This document shows, piece after piece, positions 18,532 to 29,691 of a DNA stretch of 64,000 nt. The number at the start of each line of letters is the position of its first letter. Position 1 is the stretch's first letter. The notes below the pieces were generated by a model, which saw only the letters and a program-made list of their open reading frames with translations, had not been told where the DNA came from and ran no database searches. Origin of the DNA: Limnohabitans lacus (GTDB taxonomy: Bacteria > Pseudomonadota > Gammaproteobacteria > Burkholderiales > Burkholderiaceae_C); contig NZ_JASGBH010000002.1 in the NCBI RefSeq assembly GCF_030053395.1, positions 34,625 to 98,624 on the forward strand. Reading direction: 5' to 3'. Made by a program: the position numbers and the translations under genes.

Positions 18532-18965
18532 ACGTCCTTCGCAACACTTTGAATGGGCTTGCCCTGCTGTGCATCGCAGGCCTGAGCGCTTGCGCCAACC
18601 CAGTCACCCTGGCCACTGCGACCGGTTGCGCCAAACAAGAAATCACGGCCGAACACCTGGTCGGCTCCTGGCGCGTGAGCCTGTCAGGTCAAGCTGGCAC
18701 TTGGACGCTGGTGCTGCGCCCGCACCCTGAGCACGAGGGCAGTTTGCGCGGCGCCTTGATGCAAATCCCGCAGCACTACGCGGTGGCCGCCGACCTGGAG
18801 GATGGCGAATTCACCATGGAGGAATCGCACGACGGCCAACGCATCGCGGCAACTTGGCTGGGCAAAGTGCAGGCGGGCAGCTGCGCCCAAGTCATCACCG
18901 GTACGCGCCAAGAAGGCGCTGGGGCTGAGCAGCGCTTTGAGATGCGCTCAGAGCGCCTTCGTTGA
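18528..18965 (+). CDS. small predicted lipoprotein, unknown function
   Basis: 145 residues with a type II signal peptide: hydrophobic stretch then lipobox LSAC, giving an acylated cysteine at about residue 24. The mature part is a compact domain (HLVGSWRVSLSG..WTLVLRPHPEHEGSLRGAL) with a GSW start and alternating strands suggestive of a lipocalin-like barrel, but I do not recognise a named family. It is translationally coupled to rep (ATGA overlap) and its 3' end overlaps the convergent lacI-type gene by 18 bases. Confidence 0.75.
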   Translation: MNVLRNTLNGLALLCIAGLSACANPVTLATATGCAKQEITAEHLVGSWRVSLSGQAGTWTLVLRPHPEHEGSLRGALMQIPQHYAVAADLEDGEFTMEESHDGQRIAATWLGKVQAGSCAQVITGTRQEGAGAEQRFEMRSERLR

Positions 18966-19982
18966 TTCGCGCACGACCAAGGTCGTGGGCAGCAAATCGG
19001 ATTCTGGCTTTTCGCCGGCCATGATGCGCAGCAAGCAGTCCACCAGATGGGCGCCGGCCAAGTCCAATGGCTGGCGCACCGTGGTCAAAGGCGGAAAACT
19101 GTGGGCCGCTGGCTCCACATCGTCGTAGCCCACCACGCTCACATCGTCGGGAATGCTGTAACCCCGCTCGCGCAACACGCCCAGGGCGCTGATGGCGATC
19201 AAATCACTGGCGGCCACGATGGCGTCAAAGTTCAAACCGTGACGGTCAAGGTGCACGCGCAAGGCCTCTTGCGCGCCCAATGGAGCAAAAGACGATGGGA
19301 TGTAGAGCGCAGGGTCGGTTTTCAAACCGGCTTTGCGCAAAGCCTTTTGGTAACCTGAATAACGTTTTTCAGGTTCGGGCAAAGACTTCTCGCCCATGAA
19401 GGCGATGCGCTTGCGGCCCAAGCCCAGCAGGTGTTCGGTGGCCAGCTGACCGCCGCTGGCGTTGTCGCCACCCACGCTGCAATACAGCTGGTTGGGCAAC
19501 TGCGCGCCCCAGGCCACAAAGGGCAAGCGCTGGCGTGCCAATTCGTTGAGCTGGTCGTGGTGGCCCCACTGACCGATCACGATGATGCCGCCGACACGGC
19601 CCGAGTCGTACAAAGCAGAAATCCGCTCAAGGTGATCGGCATCGACGCGCGAAAGCAGCATGTCGTACTGGCGATCCGTCAGGGCATCGGCCAGGCTACC
19701 GAGCATGCCCAAGAAGAACGGGTCTGAAATGCTTTGACGGCTGGCTGGGTAATACGGGATCACCACACCGATGGTGGTGTTGTCGCCCTTGCGCAGGTTT
19801 TGTGCGCCCAGATTGATGGTGTAGTTGAGTGAACGTGCCAGCTCGATGATGCGCAAACGCGTTTCTTCGTTGATCAACGCACTGCCATTGAGGGCGCGTG
19901 AAACTGTTGCGGTGGATACCCCTGCCAGACGGGCAATGTCCGCCATTTGTATCTTGCGCTTTTCAGGTTCTGCCTTGGCCAT
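18948..19982 (-). CDS. LacI-family transcriptional regulator of the sugar locus
   Basis: 344 residues. The N-terminal helix-turn-helix (MADIARLAGVSTATVSRALNG, residues about 13-33) and hinge are followed by a periplasmic-binding-protein-like sugar domain with conserved GVVIPYY, VVGYDDVE and PLTTVRQP. It lies immediately downstream of the tonB-exbB-exbD-exbD operon, separated by a terminator. It is the obvious candidate to bind the TTGCAATCGATTGCAA-like palindromes at 22611, 22807, 22908, 28336 and 29676, which is inference. In the Xanthomonas sux locus a LacI regulator plays the same role. No operator match is seen before its own start. Confidence 0.92.
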   Translation of the reverse strand: MAKAEPEKRKIQMADIARLAGVSTATVSRALNGSALINEETRLRIIELARSLNYTINLGAQNLRKGDNTTIGVVIPYYPASRQSISDPFFLGMLGSLADALTDRQYDMLLSRVDADHLERISALYDSGRVGGIIVIGQWGHHDQLNELARQRLPFVAWGAQLPNQLYCSVGGDNASGGQLATEHLLGLGRKRIAFMGEKSLPEPEKRYSGYQKALRKAGLKTDPALYIPSSFAPLGAQEALRVHLDRHGLNFDAIVAASDLIAISALGVLRERGYSIPDDVSVVGYDDVEPAAHSFPPLTTVRQPLDLAGAHLVDCLLRIMAGEKPESDLLPTTLVVRESTKAL

Positions 19983-20096: not shown

Positions 20097-20525
20097 TCAG
20101 TTCACAAACTGCTCAGAGCCCACGATCCCCAGTTTGGTCAGGCCAATGCGCTGGGCACTGGCCATCACGGCCGCAGCCGCTTCGTATTTCGCCTTCGCGT
20201 GCGAGCGAATGTGCAGCTCTGGCTGCGGCTGCATCGCTGCCGCTTCCCTCAGCTTGGCCTCCATGTCGGCGCGGCTGCCCACGGGCTTGCCGTTCCAGTT
20301 GATCACGCTGCCCGCATCCACATCGATCTTGATCACCACCGGATCGGCCTTTTTGGCCGCGTTGGTGGGCAGCGGCATGTCCAAATTCACCGAATGCAGC
20401 TGCGCCGGGATCGTGATGATCAGCATGATCAAGAGCACCAACATCACGTCAATCAGCGGCGTGGTGTTCATGTCGATCATGACTTCCGGCTCGTCGCTGG
20501 AACTCGTTCCTACGTTCATTCCCAT
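20097..20525 (-). CDS. exbD: ExbD/TolR family biopolymer transport protein (second copy)
   Basis: 142 residues with one N-terminal membrane helix (MLVLLIMLIITIPAQ) preceded by the conserved MNTTPLIDVMLVLL, in which the aspartate is the proton-carrying residue, then a periplasmic domain. ExbD works with ExbB to energise TonB using the proton motive force. It follows another exbD by 11 bases and ends the operon. Differences from its neighbour (an additional SSSDEPEV segment, different periplasmic domain) suggest the two are distinct subunits rather than a recent duplicate. Confidence 0.9.
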   Translation of the reverse strand: MGMNVGTSSSDEPEVMIDMNTTPLIDVMLVLLIMLIITIPAQLHSVNLDMPLPTNAAKKADPVVIKIDVDAGSVINWNGKPVGSRADMEAKLREAAAMQPQPELHIRSHAKAKYEAAAAVMASAQRIGLTKLGIVGSEQFVN

Positions 20526-20536
20526 GCTCTGCTCCT

Positions 20537-20950
20537 TCAGTTGCTGGGCTCGGTGATGAAGCCGACTTTGGTGATGCCTGCGCGTTGCACCGCGTACATC
20601 ACGCGGCCCACCGACTCGAAATCACTCTTGCCGTCGCCCCGGATCTGCACCTCCGGCTGAGGTTTCATCACCGAGAATTTCTTCATGCGCTCGAGCAAGT
20701 CCGTGCTGTTCTTGACCTTGGTGTCGTACAGGTAAATACCGCCTGCACGGTCCACCGAGATGATCACGTTTTCGGGCTTGGTCTCGCGCACCACGTTCTT
20801 TTCTTTCGGCAAGTCCACCTTGATGGAGGTGGTCACCACGGGGATCGTGATCAAAAAGATGATCAAGAGCACCAGCATCACGTCCACCAGGGGCGTGGTG
20901 TTGATGGTGCCGATGATCTCGTCATCGGCTTCGCCTACGTTCATGGCCAT
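20537..20950 (-). CDS. exbD: ExbD/TolR family biopolymer transport protein (first copy)
   Basis: 137 residues with the motif INTTPLVDVMLVLLIIFLITIPV containing the membrane aspartate, then a periplasmic domain. The start MAMNVGEADDE at 20950 is preceded by a strong AGGAGG ribosome-binding site (about 20956-20962). The frame continues upstream, but only through intergenic sequence. It is the second ExbB partner in this operon; tandem exbD genes are common next to TonB systems of betaproteobacteria and xanthomonads. Confidence 0.9.
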   Translation of the reverse strand: MAMNVGEADDEIIGTINTTPLVDVMLVLLIIFLITIPVVTTSIKVDLPKEKNVVRETKPENVIISVDRAGGIYLYDTKVKNSTDLLERMKKFSVMKPQPEVQIRGDGKSDFESVGRVMYAVQRAGITKVGFITEPSN

Positions 20951-21016
20951 GTTGGCTCCTCCTGTGATCGCTTGGGCGGCGCTGCCACCGCTCAAGCGAA
21001 GGGAATGCGAAGGGGT

Positions 21017-21871
21017 TTACTTCTTGGCCGAGCCGAGCAGCACAGCGTGCAGGTCAGAGCCAAAGGCGTTGACTTGTTCCATCACGGCCTTGTTGCGGCG
21101 CACCAGGTAGTTGTAACCCAGCACTGCAGGCACGGCCACAGCCAAGCCGATGGCGGTCATGATCAGGGCTTCACCCACGGGGCCTGCGACCTTGTCGATC
21201 GAGGCTTGGCCGGACATGCCGATCTTGACCAGCGCGTGGTAGATGCCCCACACGGTACCGAACAGACCCACGAACGGTGCAGTAGAGCCCACCGTGGCCA
21301 GCACAGCCAGACCGTCTTGCATGCGGCTTTGCACGTTGCCAATGGCACGCTGGATGCTCATGGTCACCCACTCGTTGAAGTCGACCGCACCCAGCAAACC
21401 GGTGTGCTTGGAAGCGCCTTCCAGGCCTTTTTCTGCGATGAAGCGGAAAGCGGAGCCTTCTTCGAGCGTGTCTTTGCCCTGGGCCACGGTGCTGGCGCTC
21501 CAGAAAGACTCTTGCGCAGCTTTGGCTTGCTTGTTCAGTTTGGCCTGCTCAGCGAACTTGGTGAAGATCACGTACCAAGAGCCCATGCTCATGAGCACCA
21601 AGATCAGCAAGGTGCCTTTGGCCACGGCATCGCCTTGGGCCCACAGGGCGGACAGGCCGTAGGGGTTCTCTTCTTCGGCGGCTGCAGCAGCTGGGGCAGG
21701 CGCTGCGGGTGCGGCCACAGGTGCAGAGGCCACTTCAGCTGGGGCAGGCGCTGCTGCAGCTGCGGGGGCAGGTGCTGCTTCTTTGGGTTTGGCCGCCAGC
21801 ACGTTACCGGCAGACAGGAGACCGGCCAACAGGCCAGCGCAGACGATGAGGGTTTTGAATGGTTTGAACAT
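21017..21871 (-). CDS. exbB: ExbB (MotA/TolQ/ExbB proton channel) with N-terminal extension
   Basis: 284 residues. A signal-like hydrophobic N-terminus (LIVCAGLLAGLLSAGNVLA) and an Ala/Pro-rich segment of about 45 residues precede the channel domain, which begins near ENPYGLSALW and contains three membrane helices (LILVLMSMGSWYVIF; LAVLATVGSTAPFVGLFGTVWGIYHAL; LIMTAIGLAVAVPAVLGYNYLV). The GTVWGIYHAL and AVPAVLGYN segments are ExbB hallmarks. The extended, apparently exported N-terminus is longer than in E. coli ExbB. It lies between tonB and the two exbD genes. Confidence 0.92.
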   Translation of the reverse strand: MFKPFKTLIVCAGLLAGLLSAGNVLAAKPKEAAPAPAAAAAPAPAEVASAPVAAPAAPAPAAAAAEEENPYGLSALWAQGDAVAKGTLLILVLMSMGSWYVIFTKFAEQAKLNKQAKAAQESFWSASTVAQGKDTLEEGSAFRFIAEKGLEGASKHTGLLGAVDFNEWVTMSIQRAIGNVQSRMQDGLAVLATVGSTAPFVGLFGTVWGIYHALVKIGMSGQASIDKVAGPVGEALIMTAIGLAVAVPAVLGYNYLVRRNKAVMEQVNAFGSDLHAVLLGSAKK

Positions 21872-21935: not shown

Positions 21936-22577
21936 TCATTCCAGGCGCCAGGTGTATTTCATGGTGGCCCAGCCTTGCTCAGGCTTGCCGTCCACGGTGG
22001 CGGGCTTGAAGGCGCAGCGCGACAAACCGGCGCGGGCCGCTTCGTCCAGGCGCTTGTAGCCCGAAGACTTCTCGACCTCGGCTTGCACCACCTTGCCATC
22101 GGCTCCCACCAGGAAGCGCAGGCTGACGGTGCCCTCTTCTTCCAAGCGACGCGAGGCGCTGGGGTACTCGGGTTTTTCGCAGTTGGCCGAGTTGACCACG
22201 GCGGCTGTGCGCACAGGCTCTGCTTTGACCACTGGCGGCGCTGGCGGCGCAGGTGGTGCCACCGGCTGGGGCGTGGCCGACACGGCGGCAATGGCATTGG
22301 CAGCTGGCGCTGCGTTGGTCACGGGGACATCCACAGGCGGCACATAGGCCGGAGGGGGCGGCAAGTTCTTGGGTGGTGGTGGCGGAGGCGGCGGTGGGAT
22401 ATCGGGTTTTGCATCTTCGAGCAAAACGGCCTCCACAGGACCTTGGATCTTTTTGACAAACGCGCGGGCCAAGCCCGAGCTGATGGCCCAAAAAAGCAAA
22501 AGGTGCAACACCACCACCAGCCCCAGCCCGATCAGGTGCTTGGTCGGCTTGCGTTGCCGGCTGGCGTAATCGTCCAT
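21936..22577 (-). CDS. tonB: TonB energy transducer
   Basis: 213 residues: a cytoplasmic tail, one membrane anchor (LIGLGLVVVLHLLLFWAI), a periplasmic proline-rich rod with a run of nine prolines and many AP/PP repeats, and a C-terminal TonB domain (EYPSASRRLEEEGTVSLRFLV...LSRCAFKPATVDGKPEQGW). It transmits energy from ExbBD to outer-membrane receptors, here most likely the divergent receptor at 22941. An operator-like palindrome lies 34-49 bases upstream of its start, so it is probably induced with the sugar locus. Confidence 0.93.
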   Translation of the reverse strand: MDDYASRQRKPTKHLIGLGLVVVLHLLLFWAISSGLARAFVKKIQGPVEAVLLEDAKPDIPPPPPPPPPKNLPPPPAYVPPVDVPVTNAAPAANAIAAVSATPQPVAPPAPPAPPVVKAEPVRTAAVVNSANCEKPEYPSASRRLEEEGTVSLRFLVGADGKVVQAEVEKSSGYKRLDEAARAGLSRCAFKPATVDGKPEQGWATMKYTWRLE

Positions 22578-22610
22578 TGTTTCTTTTCTCCTTGTTTCGA
22601 GTTTCGCTCA

Positions 22611-22626
22611 ATGCAATCGTTTGCAT
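22611..22626. promoter_or_regulatory. LacI-type operator upstream of tonB
   Basis: ATGCAATCGTTTGCAT, a near-perfect inverted repeat matching the locus consensus TTGCAATCGATTGCAA with a central CG, as expected for LacI-family operators. It sits 34 bases before the tonB start, in promoter position for the tonB-exbB-exbD-exbD operon. Confidence 0.75.
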
Positions 22627-22653
22627 GATACCTGTGTTTGTTCTTTTTCAACA

Positions 22654-22671
22654 CCTAGGGAAAACACTAGG
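22654..22671. repeat. 18-bp CTAG inverted repeat, copy 1
   Basis: CCTAG-8-CTAGG with the core CTAGGGAAAACACTAGG. The motif recurs 64 bases away as copy 2, in the same spacing and nearly the same core (CTAGGGAAA). Both lie in the divergent tonB/receptor promoter region. It looks like a dimeric-regulator site different from the LacI operator; the protein is unknown. Confidence 0.55.
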
Positions 22672-22717
22672 CCTTGAATTTCGGATGTTTCGCGATGGCC
22701 TGTTGCTGATCATACAC

Positions 22718-22735
22718 ACTAGGGAAAGTCCTAGT
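22718..22735. repeat. 18-bp CTAG inverted repeat, copy 2
   Basis: ACTAG-8-CTAGT, with core ACTAGGGAAAGTCCTAGT. It has the same arm length, spacer length and GGGAAA core as copy 1 at 22654-22671. Confidence 0.55.
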
Positions 22736-22806
22736 TTTTGACGATTTCTCGAGTGAAAAGACACCCCTCACACATCGCCAAAACGTCTTCGATTAAAAAT
22801 CTTTGA

Positions 22807-22822
22807 TTGCAATCGTTTTCAT
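22807..22822. promoter_or_regulatory. LacI-type operator upstream of the TonB-dependent receptor (distal)
   Basis: TTGCAATCGTTTTCAT: the left half and central CG match the consensus exactly and the right half deviates. It lies about 120 bases before the receptor start. Confidence 0.6.
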
Positions 22823-22907
22823 AGATTTGCAAAATACGTTACATCCAAGGTGCGATCACGTCCCGTGACGCTGATGGATCATCATCTGCAACAATCCTTT
22901 CATGGTT

Positions 22908-22923
22908 TTGCAATCGTTTCAAT
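22908..22923. promoter_or_regulatory. LacI-type operator upstream of the TonB-dependent receptor (proximal)
   Basis: TTGCAATCGTTTCAAT, ending 17 bases before the receptor ATG and just ahead of its TTGGAGA ribosome-binding site. Binding here would block transcription elongation or initiation of the receptor gene. Confidence 0.65.
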
Positions 22924-22940
22924 GTTTTGGAGACCCTTCT

Positions 22941-25226
22941 ATGAAGAAGCAAAAATTCGCCACTCCTACCAAAGTGGCAGCCGCCGCTGCTCTGGCAGCA
23001 TTCCAGTTGAGCGTGGCTTACGCTCAATCAAGCAACGACGCCCTCAAGCTCGATGAGGTTGTGGTGACCGGTACAGCCACTGGCGCAAGCAAGATGAAGC
23101 AATCGAGCTCCATATCTACCGTCGGCGCTGAGCAAGTGTTGCAAAGCCAACCCACCAACGCTTCCGACATCTTGCGTTCGATCCCCGGTATTCGTGCAGA
23201 GTCCAGCGGTGGTGGTGGTAATGCCAACGTGACCGTTCGTGGTTTGCCCATCTCTGCTGGCGGCTCACGCTACGTGCAATTCCAAGAAGATGGCCTGCCG
23301 GTCATGCTGTTTGGCGATGTGGCTTTTTCCACACCCGATATGTTCTTGCGTGCCGACAACAGCCTTGAGCGCTTGGAAGTTGTTCGCGGCGGCTCTGCCT
23401 CCACACTGGCCACCAATGCACCTGGCGGCATCATCAACTTCATCAGCAAGACCGGTGACGAGCCCGGCGGTAGCATTGGCGTCACAACAGGCCTGACTTA
23501 CGACCATAAGCGCCTCGATTTTGACTACAGTGGCAAATTGGGTGAGAAGACTCGCTTCTTTATCGGTGGCTACACACACAGCGGCGAAGGCCCTCGCAAC
23601 GCCACAGGCAACAGTAACCAAGGTGGCCAAATCAAGGGCAACATCACACAAGAATTGGACAACGGTTTTGTGCGTTTGAACTTCAAATCGCTGGACGACC
23701 AAAGCCCCTTGTTCATGCCTGTTCCCGTCAAAATCGCCAACGGCAAAGTGAGCGAACTTCCCGGCATTGACCCACGTGTTGCAAGCATGTACTCGCCTTA
23801 TTGGGTCAAGGATTACACGCTGACGAAGAACAACACCATGGTGGGCACTGATGTCAACGATGGTCTGCGCGTCAAACAAAATTCGTTTGGCATCGAGGCA
23901 GAGTTGAAACTTGCCGATGGTTGGAAGTTGAGCGAAAAATTCCGCCACTCCGCAATGACCGGTCGTTTTGTCGGCTTGTTCCCTGCCAATGACGTGACTG
24001 CAGCTCCTGTTGGCACCATTTACGCAACTGGCCCTAAAGCCGGGCAAGCCTACACAGGCAACGCATTCACCAACACCGTGTTCAACACGTCCATGGACGA
24101 CATGGGCAGCACAACAAACGACTTCAAGTTGAGCAAATCATTTGCTCAGGCTGATGGCGCAAAGTTGAACACCACCTTCGGTTTGTTCATGAATGTGCAA
24201 AAAGTGGGCCTGACTTGGAACTTCAACCAGTACCTGATGCAGGCCACGGACAAAAACCCAGCCTTGCTGTCCAATAGCACCACCAACAGCTATGGTGCAA
24301 CGGCACTGGGCACCTCGGTGTGGGGTGGTTGCTGCACACGCGCGATTGACGCCACTTACAACACAACATCACCCTACGCTGTGATCGGCTGGGAAAAGGG
24401 CGCTTGGAGTTTGGACGGTAGCATCCGCCATGACAACCAAGTTGCTACCGGTTCATACACCCAAGCTGTTGATAACAAATTCAACCCAGGCGACGCCAAA
24501 GCCATTAACTACAAGAAGAGTCACAACTCCTACTCTTTCGGTGCCAACTACCAGCTGAACAAAGACATGGCTGTGTTCGCCCGCATCAGCGAAGGCGTCG
24601 CGTTCAATGCAGACCGCATCATGTTCGGATCTGCTGCAGTGCCCATGGCTGGCGGCGCAGGCGTTGTCCCGATCAACACTGTCCAGCAGTATGAGGGCGG
24701 CGTGAAGATGCGCAATGGCAACTTGAGCACTTTTGTGACCTTGTTCCAAGCCAAGACCGATGAGAGCAACTTTGATGCAACCACCCAGAAAAGCACAGCC
24801 AACAAGTACGATGCCAAAGGTATTGAACTGGAAGCTGGCTACAAGATGGGTGCATTCCGCATCAATGGCGGCGTGACACTGACCGATGCAAAAATCGTCA
24901 GCAGCGGCCTGACACCTAATCGTCAAGCGAAAGTTGTTTATCAGTTGAGCCCCACATACACTTCCGGCGCTTACACCGTGGGCGCTGCAATCGTGGGTTC
25001 AAGCAGTGCAAAAGACGCTCAAGGCACTGCATACGAGGCCACTTTGCCCGCTTACACCGTTGTCAATGCATTCGCCAACTATGCCATCAGCAAAGATCTG
25101 ACAGCATCCTTTGGTGTTTACAACTTGACCAACACCATTGGTTACACCGAAATCAACGATGGTCGCATGGCCGCTCGCTCGATCAACGGTCGCTCTGCCA
25201 AGGCTGGTTTGAAGTACAGCTTCTAA
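22941..25226 (+). CDS. TonB-dependent outer-membrane receptor (sugar uptake, SuxA-like)
   Basis: 761 residues. The signal peptide ends near SVAYAQ; a TonB-box-like segment (LDEVVVTGTA) follows, then the plug domain (LQSQPTNASDILRSIPGI, VTVRGLP, LERLEVVRGGSASTLATNAPGGIINFI) and a C-terminal barrel ending in aromatic SAKAGLKYSF. Receptors of this class import ligands across the outer membrane with TonB energy. The context (sucrose phosphorylase, sugar carrier, LacI regulator) points to sucrose or a related sugar, as in the Xanthomonas sux locus; substrate is inference. The ATG at 22941 with GGAGA upstream is used; an in-frame start at 22902 adds 13 residues before the signal peptide. Codon use looks less GC-rich than most neighbours. 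Confidence 0.9.
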   Translation: MKKQKFATPTKVAAAAALAAFQLSVAYAQSSNDALKLDEVVVTGTATGASKMKQSSSISTVGAEQVLQSQPTNASDILRSIPGIRAESSGGGGNANVTVRGLPISAGGSRYVQFQEDGLPVMLFGDVAFSTPDMFLRADNSLERLEVVRGGSASTLATNAPGGIINFISKTGDEPGGSIGVTTGLTYDHKRLDFDYSGKLGEKTRFFIGGYTHSGEGPRNATGNSNQGGQIKGNITQELDNGFVRLNFKSLDDQSPLFMPVPVKIANGKVSELPGIDPRVASMYSPYWVKDYTLTKNNTMVGTDVNDGLRVKQNSFGIEAELKLADGWKLSEKFRHSAMTGRFVGLFPANDVTAAPVGTIYATGPKAGQAYTGNAFTNTVFNTSMDDMGSTTNDFKLSKSFAQADGAKLNTTFGLFMNVQKVGLTWNFNQYLMQATDKNPALLSNSTTNSYGATALGTSVWGGCCTRAIDATYNTTSPYAVIGWEKGAWSLDGSIRHDNQVATGSYTQAVDNKFNPGDAKAINYKKSHNSYSFGANYQLNKDMAVFARISEGVAFNADRIMFGSAAVPMAGGAGVVPINTVQQYEGGVKMRNGNLSTFVTLFQAKTDESNFDATTQKSTANKYDAKGIELEAGYKMGAFRINGGVTLTDAKIVSSGLTPNRQAKVVYQLSPTYTSGAYTVGAAIVGSSSAKDAQGTAYEATLPAYTVVNAFANYAISKDLTASFGVYNLTNTIGYTEINDGRMAARSINGRSAKAGLKYSF

Positions 25227-25235
25227 AGCATAGCG

Positions 25236-25258
25236 AGGCAGCGTTGCTGCCTTTTTTT
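25236..25258 (+). terminator. rho-independent terminator after the receptor gene
   Basis: AGGCAGC-GTT-GCTGCCT stem followed by TTTTTT, ten bases after the receptor stop. Confidence 0.85.
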
Positions 25259-25265
25259 ACCCATC

Positions 25266-25292
25266 AAGATCGCCTTCGGGCGATCTTTTTTT
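25266..25292 (+). terminator. second rho-independent terminator
   Basis: AGATCGCC-TTC-GGGCGATCT stem and a T-run directly behind the first terminator, giving a tandem stop. Confidence 0.8.
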
Positions 25293-25370
25293 GCATTGTC
25301 GAATCAGCCCTTTTTAGATATCAAACCATCTCTAATTCCCAGACCTTTTACCTCAAACAACACAAAAAAA

Positions 25371-25400
25371 GCCAGTCAGATCACACTGACTGGCTTTTTT
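25371..25400. terminator. bidirectional terminator between receptor and sucrose phosphorylase
   Basis: GCCAGTCAG-loop-CTGACTGGC stem flanked by A-run on the left and T-run on the right, so it can end transcripts in both directions. It lies 20 bases after the minus-strand sucrose phosphorylase stop. Confidence 0.85.
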
Positions 25401-25420
25401 TGTTGTGGATGAGCTGGTAC

Positions 25421-26896
25421 TTATCGCAATTCAAACACCACCGCTTCATCCCCAGCGAGGCCGTGGATGATACGACCTGACTTGGTCGACAAATCGACTT
25501 CAAGGCGGGCGTATGCAGCGCCTTGTTGCCAGCTCAGCGTCAGTTGGTTTGCGGCCATTGCTGCGCTGCTGAAAGCGCCGCCAAAGGCTGGATGGCTGTT
25601 ACGCAAACGCATCAGTTCAAGCAGGCGTTTGACGACGGGCTTGTTCAGATCACTCAGCACCTCTTCGCGTGAGTAGTAGTGGCGGTTGATGTCGCGACCG
25701 ACTTTGGTTTTCGCCAACAAGTCCATGTCGTTTTCACCCGCCAGCAAGCCCACGTAATACACCTGTGGAATGCCTGGCACAAAGAACTGAATCGCACGCG
25801 CCACCAGGTAGGCCGACGCGTTGCGACCCAGCGCATCAAAGAAGGTGCAGTTGACCTGGTACAGGTCCAGATTGGATGCTGCGGCACCGGTGGCACGACG
25901 GCTTTGGTTGTTCGAGTTGCGGTGCATGCGCTCCACCAACTCGTCCAGCTCATGGGGTGGCACCAGACCGGGGTGGTTGGCGCGATCTGTCGCATCCGCG
26001 CCGATGTCGATGATGCCGATGCCATCGTGGGTGTCGAGCACCGTCACCGCGTTGTTGGGGCGTTGTGCAATCCAGTCCAGCAATGGACCACTGCGACCAA
26101 ATTCCAGTGCATGCAAAACCAATGGCGGTAAGGCGAAGTCATAGACCCAGTCCACCTGCTGGGCGATTTCCATCTGGCGCTTGTAGTACGAGTGGATTTC
26201 CACCAGCACTTCCAGTCCCAGCTCACGGCCACGCTGCGCAAACGCTTTGATGAAGTCAAAGGTCTCGGGCATCATGAAGCAATTGGCCCCCGCCTTCTTG
26301 ATGGCATACCCCACCGCATCCAGGCGCACCATGGTGACGCCGCTTTGCGAGAGTTTTTGCAAGATCGAGTCCAGATAGGCCTTGCCTGCTGGTGTGTGCA
26401 CATCGATGTCGATCTGCTGGGGCGTGAAGGTGGTCCAGAGCAAACGGCGTTCACCATTGGCCAGCGTGGTCACCGTGAAAGGCATGCCGGGACGTGGGCG
26501 GTACACCGCGAGCAAGTCCTTTTCAGTGGCGCCGTTCGGGAAGACCGATTCCATCGTCAAAAACAGGCCGTCGTATTCAGAGGCACTGCCCTTCTGGGAA
26601 TAGTCCAGGAACTGTGGGGATTCCGAAGACATGTGGTTGACGATCACGTCGGCCATCACACCCATTTGTTCAGACAGGTTGGCAATGTCTTTCCATTCGC
26701 CCAAGCGGTCGTCCACGCGTGTGTGGTCAATCGGATCAAAGCCCGCATCGGCACCGTCGATTTTGTAAAAAAACGGCAGCAAATGAACGCCACCGACTGC
26801 ACCCTTCAATGGACCTGTGATGAGCTCCTGCAGTTGTGGCAAGGTCTGACCGCCAAAGCGGTCGACGTAAGTGATCAATTGAACTTCGTTACGCAT
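25421..26896 (-). CDS. sucrose phosphorylase (GH13 subfamily 18)
   Basis: 491 residues. It closely follows the Bifidobacterium adolescentis enzyme (504 aa): N-terminal VQLITYVDRFGG, LPFFYKIDGADAGFDPIDHT, VNHMSSES, the nucleophile in VRLDAVGY (Asp193), the acid/base in LVEIHSYY (Glu233), LDTHDGIGIIDIG, the RPRPG loop and GRDINRHYY. It splits sucrose with phosphate into glucose-1-phosphate and fructose in the cytoplasm. It lies 44 bases after the MFS carrier in the same operon. A related GH13_18 activity (glucosylglycerol or sucrose-6-phosphate phosphorylase) cannot be excluded, but similarity is strongest to true sucrose phosphorylase. Confidence 0.9.
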   Translation of the reverse strand: MRNEVQLITYVDRFGGQTLPQLQELITGPLKGAVGGVHLLPFFYKIDGADAGFDPIDHTRVDDRLGEWKDIANLSEQMGVMADVIVNHMSSESPQFLDYSQKGSASEYDGLFLTMESVFPNGATEKDLLAVYRPRPGMPFTVTTLANGERRLLWTTFTPQQIDIDVHTPAGKAYLDSILQKLSQSGVTMVRLDAVGYAIKKAGANCFMMPETFDFIKAFAQRGRELGLEVLVEIHSYYKRQMEIAQQVDWVYDFALPPLVLHALEFGRSGPLLDWIAQRPNNAVTVLDTHDGIGIIDIGADATDRANHPGLVPPHELDELVERMHRNSNNQSRRATGAAASNLDLYQVNCTFFDALGRNASAYLVARAIQFFVPGIPQVYYVGLLAGENDMDLLAKTKVGRDINRHYYSREEVLSDLNKPVVKRLLELMRLRNSHPAFGGAFSSAAMAANQLTLSWQQGAAYARLEVDLSTKSGRIIHGLAGDEAVVFELR

Positions 26897-26940
26897 TTTT
26901 CTGAGACATCAATTTCAAACAACAAGTCATGCCATCCACT

Positions 26941-28272
26941 TCAGGCTGAAGTGGATGGGTTTTCAACGGGGACTTTGACCCTCAACGTGGCCATTGCTGC
27001 CAAGCAAAGCAACACACCGGCCAGCACCAAGACGTTGCGAGGATCACCCCCCAAAAGGGGGTGGTAAATCAGGGGCAAGGTCACACCCTGGATGAGCATC
27101 GGAATCACAATGAACATGTTGAAAATGCCCATGTAAACACCTGTTCGCTCCGCCGGGATGCTTCTGGCCAACATCACGTAGGGGTTGCCCATGATGCTGG
27201 CCCAACCCAGACCCACGCCAATCATGGGCAGGAACAAGAGGGCTTGGCTTTGGATGTGAGGAATGGTCATCATGCCCAGTCCCGCAGCGACCAAGCACAA
27301 GGCATGCATCTTTCCGGCGCCCCAGCGGCGCGTGAATGGCACCATGGCCAACGCCGCAACAAAAGCCACCGCGTTGTAGAACCCACCGATTTGTCCGTTG
27401 ACCAAGACCGCGTCGCGAAAGCCCGTGCTGGTCGGATCCGACGTGTCAAACATGTTGCGGGCGATGGCATAGGTGACGTATTGCCAGTAGCACATCATGG
27501 CGTACCACTGGAACAGCTTCATCCACGCCAGTTGCCGCATGGCTTGTGGCATTTCTTTGATCGCTTGTGCAATCTCTTTGAGCGTGCTGAGCCAGCCTTG
27601 CTGCTTGGCCTTCAGTGCGGCCATCTCTTGCGCTGACAAGGGCAGCTCAGGGACCTTCCAGATCGACCATGCAATGGTGGATGCCGACAGCAGGGCACCG
27701 ATGATGAAGGCCACTTGGGTGATTTGAGGGATGTGGTTGCCGCCTACCGCATCCTTGTTCATGCCCATCCACACCATGATGGAGGGCGCGAGGTACGACA
27801 GTGTTTGTGCCAAACCCGTGAAGGCGCTTTGCGTCAGGTAACCCAATGCGTGTTGTTCCTTGGGCAGGCGGTCGCTCACATAGGCGCGATAGGGCTCCAT
27901 GGTGATGTTGTTGGCCGCATCCAAGATCCACAGCAAACTCGCCGCCATCCACAGCGCAGAGCTGTAAGGCATGGCCAACAAAGACAGCGAGCACAACACC
28001 GCACCAATGAAGAAATAGGGTGTGCGTCGACCCCAGCGCGATGTGGTCCTGTCGCTCATGGCGCCCACAATCGGCTGCACCAACAAGCCTGTGACCGGCC
28101 CAGCCAGTGCGAGCAAGGGCAATGCAGCCTCATCCGCGCCCAGGTAGCTGTAGATCGGGCTCATATTGCTTTGCTGCAAACCAAAGCTGAATTGCAAGCC
28201 CAAAAAGCCGATGTTCATTTGCACGATCTGGGAGATCGACAAAGTGGGCGGTGTGGTTCTGATGGAGGTCAT
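26941..28272 (-). CDS. MFS/GPH-type sugar (sucrose) transporter, SuxC/SUT-like
   Basis: 443 residues, twelve membrane helices. The SDRTTSRWGRRTPYFFIGA loop and NITMEPYRAYVSDRLP segment are characteristic of the SUT/SuxC group of disaccharide-proton symporters. The protein starts MTSIRTTPPTLSISQ at 28272; an upstream in-frame start at 28341 would overlap the operator. It likely brings the sugar delivered by the receptor across the inner membrane and is cotranscribed with sucrose phosphorylase. The perfect operator at 28336-28351 lies 64 bases upstream. Confidence 0.88.
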   Translation of the reverse strand: MTSIRTTPPTLSISQIVQMNIGFLGLQFSFGLQQSNMSPIYSYLGADEAALPLLALAGPVTGLLVQPIVGAMSDRTTSRWGRRTPYFFIGAVLCSLSLLAMPYSSALWMAASLLWILDAANNITMEPYRAYVSDRLPKEQHALGYLTQSAFTGLAQTLSYLAPSIMVWMGMNKDAVGGNHIPQITQVAFIIGALLSASTIAWSIWKVPELPLSAQEMAALKAKQQGWLSTLKEIAQAIKEMPQAMRQLAWMKLFQWYAMMCYWQYVTYAIARNMFDTSDPTSTGFRDAVLVNGQIGGFYNAVAFVAALAMVPFTRRWGAGKMHALCLVAAGLGMMTIPHIQSQALLFLPMIGVGLGWASIMGNPYVMLARSIPAERTGVYMGIFNMFIVIPMLIQGVTLPLIYHPLLGGDPRNVLVLAGVLLCLAAMATLRVKVPVENPSTSA

Positions 28273-28335
28273 CGGTCTTAAAGAGAAAGGCACTGCGCGC
28301 AGCAGCAAAAATGCAATGCCCCAATTTATCCGACT

Positions 28336-28351
28336 TTGCAATCGATTGCAA
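28336..28351. promoter_or_regulatory. LacI-type operator, perfect palindrome
   Basis: TTGCAATCGATTGCAA, a perfect 16-bp palindrome with central CG, between the carrier/sucrose phosphorylase operon and the upstream repeat-protein gene. It defines the consensus for the other four sites. Confidence 0.85.
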
Positions 28352-28418
28352 TAGGGTTTGCACTTGTTTTGAATGGCGACGGCTCGCCCCGTACGTCAGC
28401 CTGCTTCCTCGCCCCTGT

Positions 28419-29621
28419 TCAGCGCGCCAGAATCGCCCACAAAGCGGCCAACTCCACAGCCGTGGCATCGCCACTCACCAAAGCCAATTGTTGGCGAGCT
28501 GCGCCCTTTTGGTCGGCTTGAACCAGGCTGATGGCCGCGTGCAAACGCACTTCGTGCTCACGCCGCAGCCCCCCCAATTCGATCGCCTTGGCGTAGGCCG
28601 CGTTCGCAGCCGACCAGTTTTGGCGCGAGAAATGGACATCGCCTACCGCCGCCCATGAAGCGCCGTCCTTGGCCGACTTTTCCAGTTGCGCAAACAAGGC
28701 ATCGTCTTCCTGGACTTTTTTCTGGGCATCCGTGCGCAATTTGGCGTGTGCAGCAGCCTCAGCGCCTTGGCCCAAGACGCCTGCAGCAAAGCCCTTGGTG
28801 ATGACGCGCACAGCCTCTGAAGGCAAGCCCGCCTTCAAAGCCAATGAGGCCATCTCCACGTATTCAGCGGCATCCTCCATGTTGTCCGTTTGCTCCAACA
28901 GACGGTACAGGTCCAATTCCAATCGAGTGTTCAAACCCGCTTGCTGCGACATGCGGCCGAGCACTTCGGCCCAATAGGGCTTGCTGGGGTAGTTCGACAA
29001 CAACAGCTTGAGGGTGTTCATGTAACCGGCATCGTCCTTGAGCTGGCGGTAGCTGAGCGCCAATGTGCGCAGTTCGGGCTCGGGGGTTTTCTTCGCAGTC
29101 GACGCATCCATGCGGATTTTGGCCTGCATCACACCCACCACTTCTGCGTGCTGGCCAGATGCAGCCAAGGCCTGCACCAAGGCCAGATGGACTGCGGGAT
29201 TGGCGCCGCCATCTTGCAGGTATTGCCGCGCCCACTTCACAACGCGTGCATCGTCCTTCAGTTGCAGACTGGCATTGATCAAGGACTCGAGCAAGGGTCG
29301 TTTGTCCGTTTGCGGCACATCGGCTGAAGTCACCAAAGACTCCAAGGCCTCTGTTGCGAGCTTCCATTTTTGAGCGCGCAAAGCCGCCACCGCTTGCGTG
29401 CGCGAGATCATGTTTTTCTCGTTCGCGGTGAGCTGGGGCACCGCCAAAGCGTCACGCAGCAAACCCAAGGCTTGATCGTTTTGGTTGTTCTTGATCGCTT
29501 CTTGCGCCGCCGCCAAAGGCTTGATCACTTCATTGCGCAGGGTGCCCTGCGCCAGGACAGAGCCGGCACAAAGGCCCAAAGCGCCAATCCATAAGCTCAA
29601 CTGCTGCAGATACTTGTTCAT
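28419..29621 (-). CDS. exported TPR-like helical repeat protein, unknown function
   Basis: 400 residues. A signal peptide (LSLWIGALGLCAGSVLAQG) indicates export to the periplasm. The rest is alpha-helical, with repeats of small and large residues spaced as in tetratricopeptide repeats, for example NNQNDQALGLLRDAL, NPAVHLALVQALAASGQHAEV, DGASWAAVGDVHFSRQNWSAANAAYAKAIELGG. The last is a clear TPR. I do not recognise a named family. It has its own operator-like palindrome (29676-29691) 55 bases upstream, linking it to the sugar regulon. TPR proteins are known partners of some TonB systems, so a role next to TonB/ExbBD or the receptor is a plausible guess only. Confidence 0.8.
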   Translation of the reverse strand: MNKYLQQLSLWIGALGLCAGSVLAQGTLRNEVIKPLAAAQEAIKNNQNDQALGLLRDALAVPQLTANEKNMISRTQAVAALRAQKWKLATEALESLVTSADVPQTDKRPLLESLINASLQLKDDARVVKWARQYLQDGGANPAVHLALVQALAASGQHAEVVGVMQAKIRMDASTAKKTPEPELRTLALSYRQLKDDAGYMNTLKLLLSNYPSKPYWAEVLGRMSQQAGLNTRLELDLYRLLEQTDNMEDAAEYVEMASLALKAGLPSEAVRVITKGFAAGVLGQGAEAAAHAKLRTDAQKKVQEDDALFAQLEKSAKDGASWAAVGDVHFSRQNWSAANAAYAKAIELGGLRREHEVRLHAAISLVQADQKGAARQQLALVSGDATAVELAALWAILAR

Positions 29622-29675
29622 GATGTTCCTTGGGTCATGGGCTCAAAAGTCTTGCGATTGTCTTGAATAAAGTCC

Positions 29676-29691
29676 TCAAAATCGATTGCAA
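29676..29691. promoter_or_regulatory. LacI-type operator upstream of the TPR-like gene
   Basis: TCAAAATCGATTGCAA: core ATCGATTGCAA identical to the perfect operator at 28336, left arm degraded. It lies 55 bases before the TPR-like gene start. Confidence 0.65.

Follow-up and report, generated by a model that had tools for sequence, protein, structure and literature searches.

The tonB-exbB-exbD operon of a sugar-uptake locus in Limnohabitans lacus is in all likelihood part of a local, SuxR-type sucrose regulon, according to comparative evidence. The locus lies in a window of 64,000 nt (the whole stretch of DNA analysed) and comprises tonB, exbB, exbD1, exbD2 and a LacI-family regulator gene (18948-19982) in one operon, a divergent gene for a TonB-dependent receptor, a carrier-sucrose phosphorylase gene pair and a gene for an exported tetratricopeptide repeat (TPR) protein. 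The initial annotation had proposed that five palindromic operators tie all these genes to the adjacent regulator, so that TonB energy transduction would itself be under sugar control. The latter is supported by the comparison of 53 tonB operons with sufficient upstream DNA, among which an operator (a matrix score of at least 15 bits) appeared before 16 of the 20 operons linked to the sugar locus, i.e. near the regulator or the receptor, versus none of the 33 unlinked ones, the best of which scored 6.9 (L147).

The five palindromes were found where the initial annotation had placed them, each retaining the ATCG core: ATGCAATCGTTTGCAT (22611), TTGCAATCGTTTTCAT (22807), TTGCAATCGTTTCAAT (22908), TTGCAATCGATTGCAA (28336) and TCAAAATCGATTGCAA (29676). 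An independent training set was formed by 70 distinct regions upstream of receptor homologues, taken from loci outside Limnohabitans and without a tonB-type exbB. Searched de novo, with the motif not assumed, these regions presented TGCAATCGATTGCA as the commonest perfect 14-bp palindrome, appearing in 58 of the 70, followed by a runner-up in 4, while a control, the initial 450 bp of each receptor gene, had no shared perfect palindrome. The motif thus has the form of LacI-family operators (palindromes of 16-20 bp with a central CG). The matrix was built from the 66 training regions whose site deviated by no more than two mismatches, no Limnohabitans sequence being included; in it the five sites took the first five ranks among all 16-mers of the 64 kb, with scores of 32.2 (28336), 24.4 (22611), 19.8 (22807), 11.9 (29676) and 10.2 (22908), the sixth-best being 6.2. 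The corresponding numbers expected per dinucleotide-shuffled 64 kb (40 shuffles) were 0, 0.025, 0.025, 0.23 and 0.53, so that the sites at 28336, 22611 and 22807 were significant by score alone. Moreover, four window matches lay within three mismatches of the 28336 site, compared with 0.49 expected; the 22908 site, with more than three mismatches, was not one of them.

Genome-wide counts were obtained by pattern searches rather than by a matrix scan. Only three places in the 3.15-Mb genome were within one mismatch of the 14-bp core TGCAATCGWTTGCA, and these were the sites at 22611, 28336 and 22807. At up to three mismatches, 249 forward matches were found versus 52 for the reversed control pattern, which is too unselective for weak sites to be called across the genome. 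The three best genomic sites are therefore all at the locus; as far as weak sites are concerned, a regulon extending past it is neither demonstrated nor excluded.

The motif accompanies the regulator in relatives. Receptor homologues were found in 40 of 299 family genomes, and a site within two mismatches appeared in the 450 bp before the receptor in 36 of 38 loci, L084 and L089 having none in that interval. Among the best 80 of 337 loci, which were those named, the closest relatives were Limnohabitans, the cultured strains T6-5 and Jir72 having near-identical loci, and the set of receptor, carrier, regulator and operator recurred in Massilia, Duganella, Janthinobacterium, Undibacterium and other Burkholderiales. 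In these loci outside the genus the phosphorylase match was mostly only weak and is taken to reflect an amylosucrase-like gene. The regulator and the exact 16-bp motif were both present in 22 of 90 Limnohabitans-group genomes and both absent from 59, the reversed control of the motif matching in three genomes. The co-occurrence of motif and regulator, together with the operators before linked tonB operons, favours the proposal that the adjacent regulator serves the five sites, the one at 29676 being the least secure.

With regard to tonB itself, Limnohabitans-group genomes without the sugar locus often present tonB-exbB-exbD1-exbD2 between a gene for a UvrD-type helicase and a TctC-type gene, and the tonB operons at this position have neither regulator nor operator; in the window, the entire sugar locus lies between the same two genes. 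Three copies with the upstream DNA cut off (L269, L215 and L210) were left out of the count, and so were copies truncated at a contig end in which exbB did not reach the match threshold; where upstream DNA was present in the latter, operators were found in L123, L175, L176, L178, L179 and L180 and none in L177. On a tree of 52 tonB operons, the operator state required at least eight changes, at least five of them forced by well-supported branches. A single origin of the operator-bearing operons was rejected by the approximately unbiased test (p = 2.5e-6), which was applied post hoc to a group defined by the operator. When independent pairs were drawn on well-supported branches, the operator went with linkage in 4.5 of 6 and against it in none. 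These results suggest that the coupling between sugar locus and tonB was gained or lost several times among relatives.

Three genomes (G307, G310 and G316) have two tonB copies each, one with and one without the operator, whose coding DNA is 97%, 95% and 90% identical, respectively, over the compared stretch. Their similarity sets in no more than about 16 bp from the start codon of tonB, and nothing aligns farther upstream; the window tonB shows the same promoter break against the operator-free copies of G312 and G316. In the favoured reading, the tonB operon is of the type proper to the genus, and its annexation came about through altered DNA immediately 5′ of its start codon. Several contigs end within the operon, as expected of a repeat. 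We infer that it was duplicated around the sugar island and that the operator-free copy was later lost in the window lineage, the direction being unproven.

Other arrangements of tonB were also observed. In L176/L177, L178/L138 and L124/L125, sugar islands reaching about 40 kb in length carry two near-identical tonB copies at their ends, with unrelated promoters. In G312, a different palindrome, ATGTTAACGTTAACAT, precedes both a second tonB copy and a receptor (L128:11889 and L174:7407), the latter adjoining another LacI gene and a GH3 gene, and this 16-mer has exactly two copies in that genome. Relatives of the second LacI protein at E ≤ 1e-70 were found in 2 of 399 family genomes (42% and 44% identical), the palindrome being near neither of them, so this second-regulator case comes from one genome, G312; as the tonB operon is repeated there, the contig through that copy may be a wrong join. 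In G344 and G356 (L123, L182 and L132), a galactose cluster lies opposite the tonB promoter that bears the operator, and the Pfam-confirmed alpha-galactosidase and galactokinase in L182 suggest raffinose-type sugars. In G356, a GH32 enzyme and a distant receptor have the TTGCAATCGATTGCAA operator in common (L181:11849-15904), which may extend the regulon to fructosides.

In the proposed mechanism, the LacI-family protein would occupy operators of the TTGCAAWCGWTTGCAA type as a dimer, repressing the receptor gene, the carrier-phosphorylase genes and the tonB-exbB-exbD1-exbD2-lacI operon. The tonB operator follows directly behind TATCAT, a putative -10 box, so the start of transcription would be blocked, and the regulator, being the last gene of this operon, would repress itself. 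Of the 31 loci holding exbD2 (five of them fetched twice), 27 have the regulator gene behind exbD2 in the same orientation. Entry of sucrose or a related sugar would release the repressor, whereupon receptor, carrier, phosphorylase and the TonB motor driving the receptor would be made together. TATCAT or TATGAT was found directly 5′ of the tonB operator in 14 of 16 Limnohabitans-group loci, L180 having TACAAT and L231 neither.

Several observations weigh against this reading. A sigma-70 consensus scan of 22550-22960 reported no promoter by its rules, so that the tonB promoter is only a suggestion. Four linked tonB operons lacked the operator, namely L196, which has a different perfect palindrome before tonB instead, L244, L085 and L202 (G310), where the regulator stands behind an operator-free tonB; the last was scored against the reading, although its contig begins inside an operator-bearing copy and may hence be a wrong join. 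The test on pairs had six pairs and a median p of 0.0625, and the Fisher values ignore kinship. Three of the 90 genomes (G354, G368 and G373) had the motif without the regulator and six had the regulator without the exact motif. Finally, the sites at 22908 and 29676 were not individually significant in their matrix scores against the 40 shuffles. The former is kept at the same place in L053, L125, L126, L127, L130, L131 and L133, but the latter is hardly conserved, being intact in the near-identical locus L126, retained by half in L127 and absent from view in L053, L122, L125, L131 and L133; L176 and L178 have a different sequence, TTGCAATCGATTGTTT, about 240 bp 5′ of the TPR gene.

Since tonB and the divergent receptor gene share an intergenic region of 363 bp with three sites, the one near tonB could act on the receptor promoter only, as a distant auxiliary looping operator, with tonB made regardless and only the sugar genes forming a LacI regulon. 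We consider this improbable, as that site is close to tonB and behind the conserved TATCAT/TATGAT; moreover, the tonB operator is kept in G344, L132/L205 and L231, where the gene diverging from tonB encodes another product or only a distant version of this receptor, and in L054/L216 tonB and the receptor gene have the same orientation and a site each. Less probable still is occupation of the sites by another LacI-family protein. With the regulator as query, three LacI-type proteins were found in the genome, itself included, and the two paralogues (C23:104390 and C2:139218; 34% and 30% identical) have similar recognition helices; nevertheless, the motif tracks the adjacent regulator across genomes, and the top three genomic sites lie around its gene.

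Iron control of tonB is usual in many bacteria (also stated in the accessible text of PMC10734418), and the operon could be truly Fur-controlled with the LacI site being secondary. This is very unlikely here: the best match to the Fur consensus in the tonB-receptor region was 11/19, against a mean of 11.4 in shuffled sequences, and the operator-bearing tonB promoters were like the others for Fur-type sites. Fur control was accordingly rejected for want of a site above chance, using a consensus of the E. coli form.

The features of the locus are collected in Table 1. The regulator has the N-terminal helix-turn-helix and the periplasmic-binding-like effector domain of the LacI family, and the TonB, ExbB and ExbD proteins, encoded in one operon, each have their own Pfam domain, although the NCBIfam equivalog cut-offs for ExbB/ExbD were not reached. 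For the receptor, 22941 is the most probable start, being preceded by GGAG, and its substrate is probably sucrose or a sucrose-containing sugar. The product of 25421-26896 is a predicted sucrose phosphorylase by a curated model above its cut-off, and this match together with synteny points to sucrose as the sugar of the locus. The carrier reached 88.6 bits with TIGR01301 (GPH_sucrose), below the cut-off of 511; its start is most likely the ATG at 28272, which places the 28336 site upstream of the carrier gene and not within the open reading frame listed from 28341. The locus therefore presents the gene set of a SuxR-type system, i.e. a LacI regulator, a sucrose-type TonB-dependent receptor, an inner-membrane carrier and a sucrose-cleaving enzyme. 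In addition, two imperfect inverted repeats (CTAGGG-N6-CTAG), 64 bp apart, lie between tonB and the receptor gene and are possibly an activator site; they are the only exact matches in the genome (13 for the reversed control pattern) and are kept or nearly so in L195, L209, L133, L125 and L199.

Table 1. Features of the sugar-uptake locus, in positions of the 64,000-nt window
Feature	Position	Strand	Remarks
LacI-family regulator (SuxR-like)	18948..19982	-	Last gene of tonB operon; Pfam LacI 55.7 bits (cut-off 27), Peripla_BP_3 119.4 (cut-off 26.5)
exbD2	20097..20525	-	Pfam ExbD 87.5 bits
exbD1	20537..20995	-	Start codon uncertain; Pfam ExbD 96.4 bits
exbB	21017..21871	-	Pfam MotA_ExbB 111.6 bits
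tonB	21936..22577	-	Pfam TonB_C 65.9 bits
Operator O1	22611..22626	.	Centre 41 bp 5′ of tonB start codon; matrix rank 2; same position in relatives; TATCAT precedes
First CTAGGG-N6-CTAG repeat	22655..22670	.	
Second CTAGGG-N6-CTAG repeat	22719..22734	.	
Operator O2	22807..22822	.	Upstream of receptor; matrix rank 3; kept in relatives
Operator O3	22908..22923	.	Just 5′ of receptor start codon; matrix rank 5, weak; position kept in relatives
TonB-dependent receptor	22941..25226	+	Pfam Plug 61.9 bits, barrel 96.2 bits
Sucrose phosphorylase (predicted)	25421..26896	-	NCBIfam TIGR03852 448.4 bits (cut-off 334.4)
Inner-membrane sugar carrier (MFS/GPH-like)	26941..28272	-	Pfam MFS_1 84.7 bits
Operator O4	28336..28351	.	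5′ of carrier-phosphorylase pair; matrix rank 1; perfect palindrome; conserved
Exported TPR protein	28419..29621	-	Pfam TPR_14 26.2 bits; homologues directly behind exbD2 in relatives
Candidate operator O5	29676..29691	.	5′ of TPR gene; matrix rank 4; weak, little conserved

The exported repeat protein that the initial annotation had counted in the regulon is a TPR protein and likely an accessory of the TonB system, even though its own site at 29676 is weak. A homologue follows exbD2 at a distance of under 700 bp in 20 of the 31 loci with exbD2, or in 15 of 26 when the five loci fetched twice are subtracted, and is thus encoded with tonB-exbB-exbD in relatives, while the window gene lies apart. 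In L223, L225 and L243, a TPR gene is followed by a regulator gene, with ATGTAAACGATTGCAC upstream and no exbD found in front.

TonB is commonly viewed as a shared, often iron-regulated motor. Here the comparison of genomes indicates that the motor itself is a member of a sugar regulon, and relatives without the sugar locus, or with an operator-free second copy, provide natural controls. The window genome has eight receptors with a Plug domain, four TonB_C matches (three above the cut-off) and five ExbD matches. One TonB_C/ExbD pair is the Tol system, with TolQ, TolA and YbgC above their cut-offs and TolR just below, and neither of the other two TonB-like genes has an ExbD gene next to it. Apart from Tol, the present operon is thus the sole tonB-exbB-exbD cluster detected. 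Other receptors could still be served by the two remaining ExbB/ExbD pairs and by the two lone TonB-like proteins. It is a speculative and rather doubtful idea that TonB operons are modules annexed by sugar regulators, that in this genus the operon was duplicated beside sugar islands, each copy taking the operator of the adjoining LacI repressor (sucrose here, perhaps beta-glucoside in G312), and that, with the operator-free copy lost from the window strain, the only complete motor found, for eight receptors, stands under the sucrose repressor; if so, uptake through the other receptors would depend on sugar. A cultivable freshwater group becomes available for asking whether TonB supply limits sugar uptake, and the question arises of whether the repressor of one nutrient gates the uptake of others, e.g. 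iron or vitamin B12.

Regarding known systems, the TPR protein is comparable to TtpD2 of Vibrio vulnificus, a 425-aa TPR protein needed by the TonB2 system (PMC6957404, as described there), both being of about 400 aa and encoded with tonB-exbB-exbD; this need would explain why the TPR gene joined the regulon. However, the Vibrio TonB2 system is iron-induced, and the likeness to TtpD2 is one of size, repeat type and gene neighbourhood. TonB, ExbB and ExbD proteins also rise with a sugar in Azospirillum brasilense grown on fructose (PMC11837500), although the accessible text of that report names neither a regulator nor a site for tonB. The SucR/sucABCD system of Caulobacter (PMC11897816) likewise has a LacI-type repressor of a sucrose receptor operon, but the text available does not mention tonB among its targets. 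The ScrR-II regulon of Shewanella (PMC2996990) shares with the window a LacI regulator, a TonB-dependent receptor, a carrier, a sucrose phosphorylase and common predicted sites, yet these sites, as given in the accessible part, precede scrP, scrT and omp-scrK, with no tonB/exb among them. A survey of LacI regulons (PMC4052901) describes 11 sucrose regulator groups, the word TonB being absent from its available text, and no report of a LacI operator before tonB, or of tonB-exbBD as a target of such a regulator, was found in the open-licence PMC literature. The sux locus of Xanthomonas campestris (PMC1790865) comprises SuxR, the SuxA receptor, the SuxC carrier and the SuxB amylosucrase, and its induction by sucrose has been demonstrated; the portion of that paper at hand leaves open which tonB serves sux, with the eight tonB mutants showing no significant loss. 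As in the window, a LacI-family repressor adjoins the sucrose TonB-dependent receptor, the carrier and the sucrose enzyme, and this gene content and layout suggest the SuxR-like naming, while only in the window do tonB-exbB-exbD, regulator and sugar genes share operators and is a sucrose phosphorylase present, as far as the sux description extends. A LacI-type sucrose regulon with a TonB-dependent receptor is therefore of a known kind, of which the annexed TonB operon is a variant.

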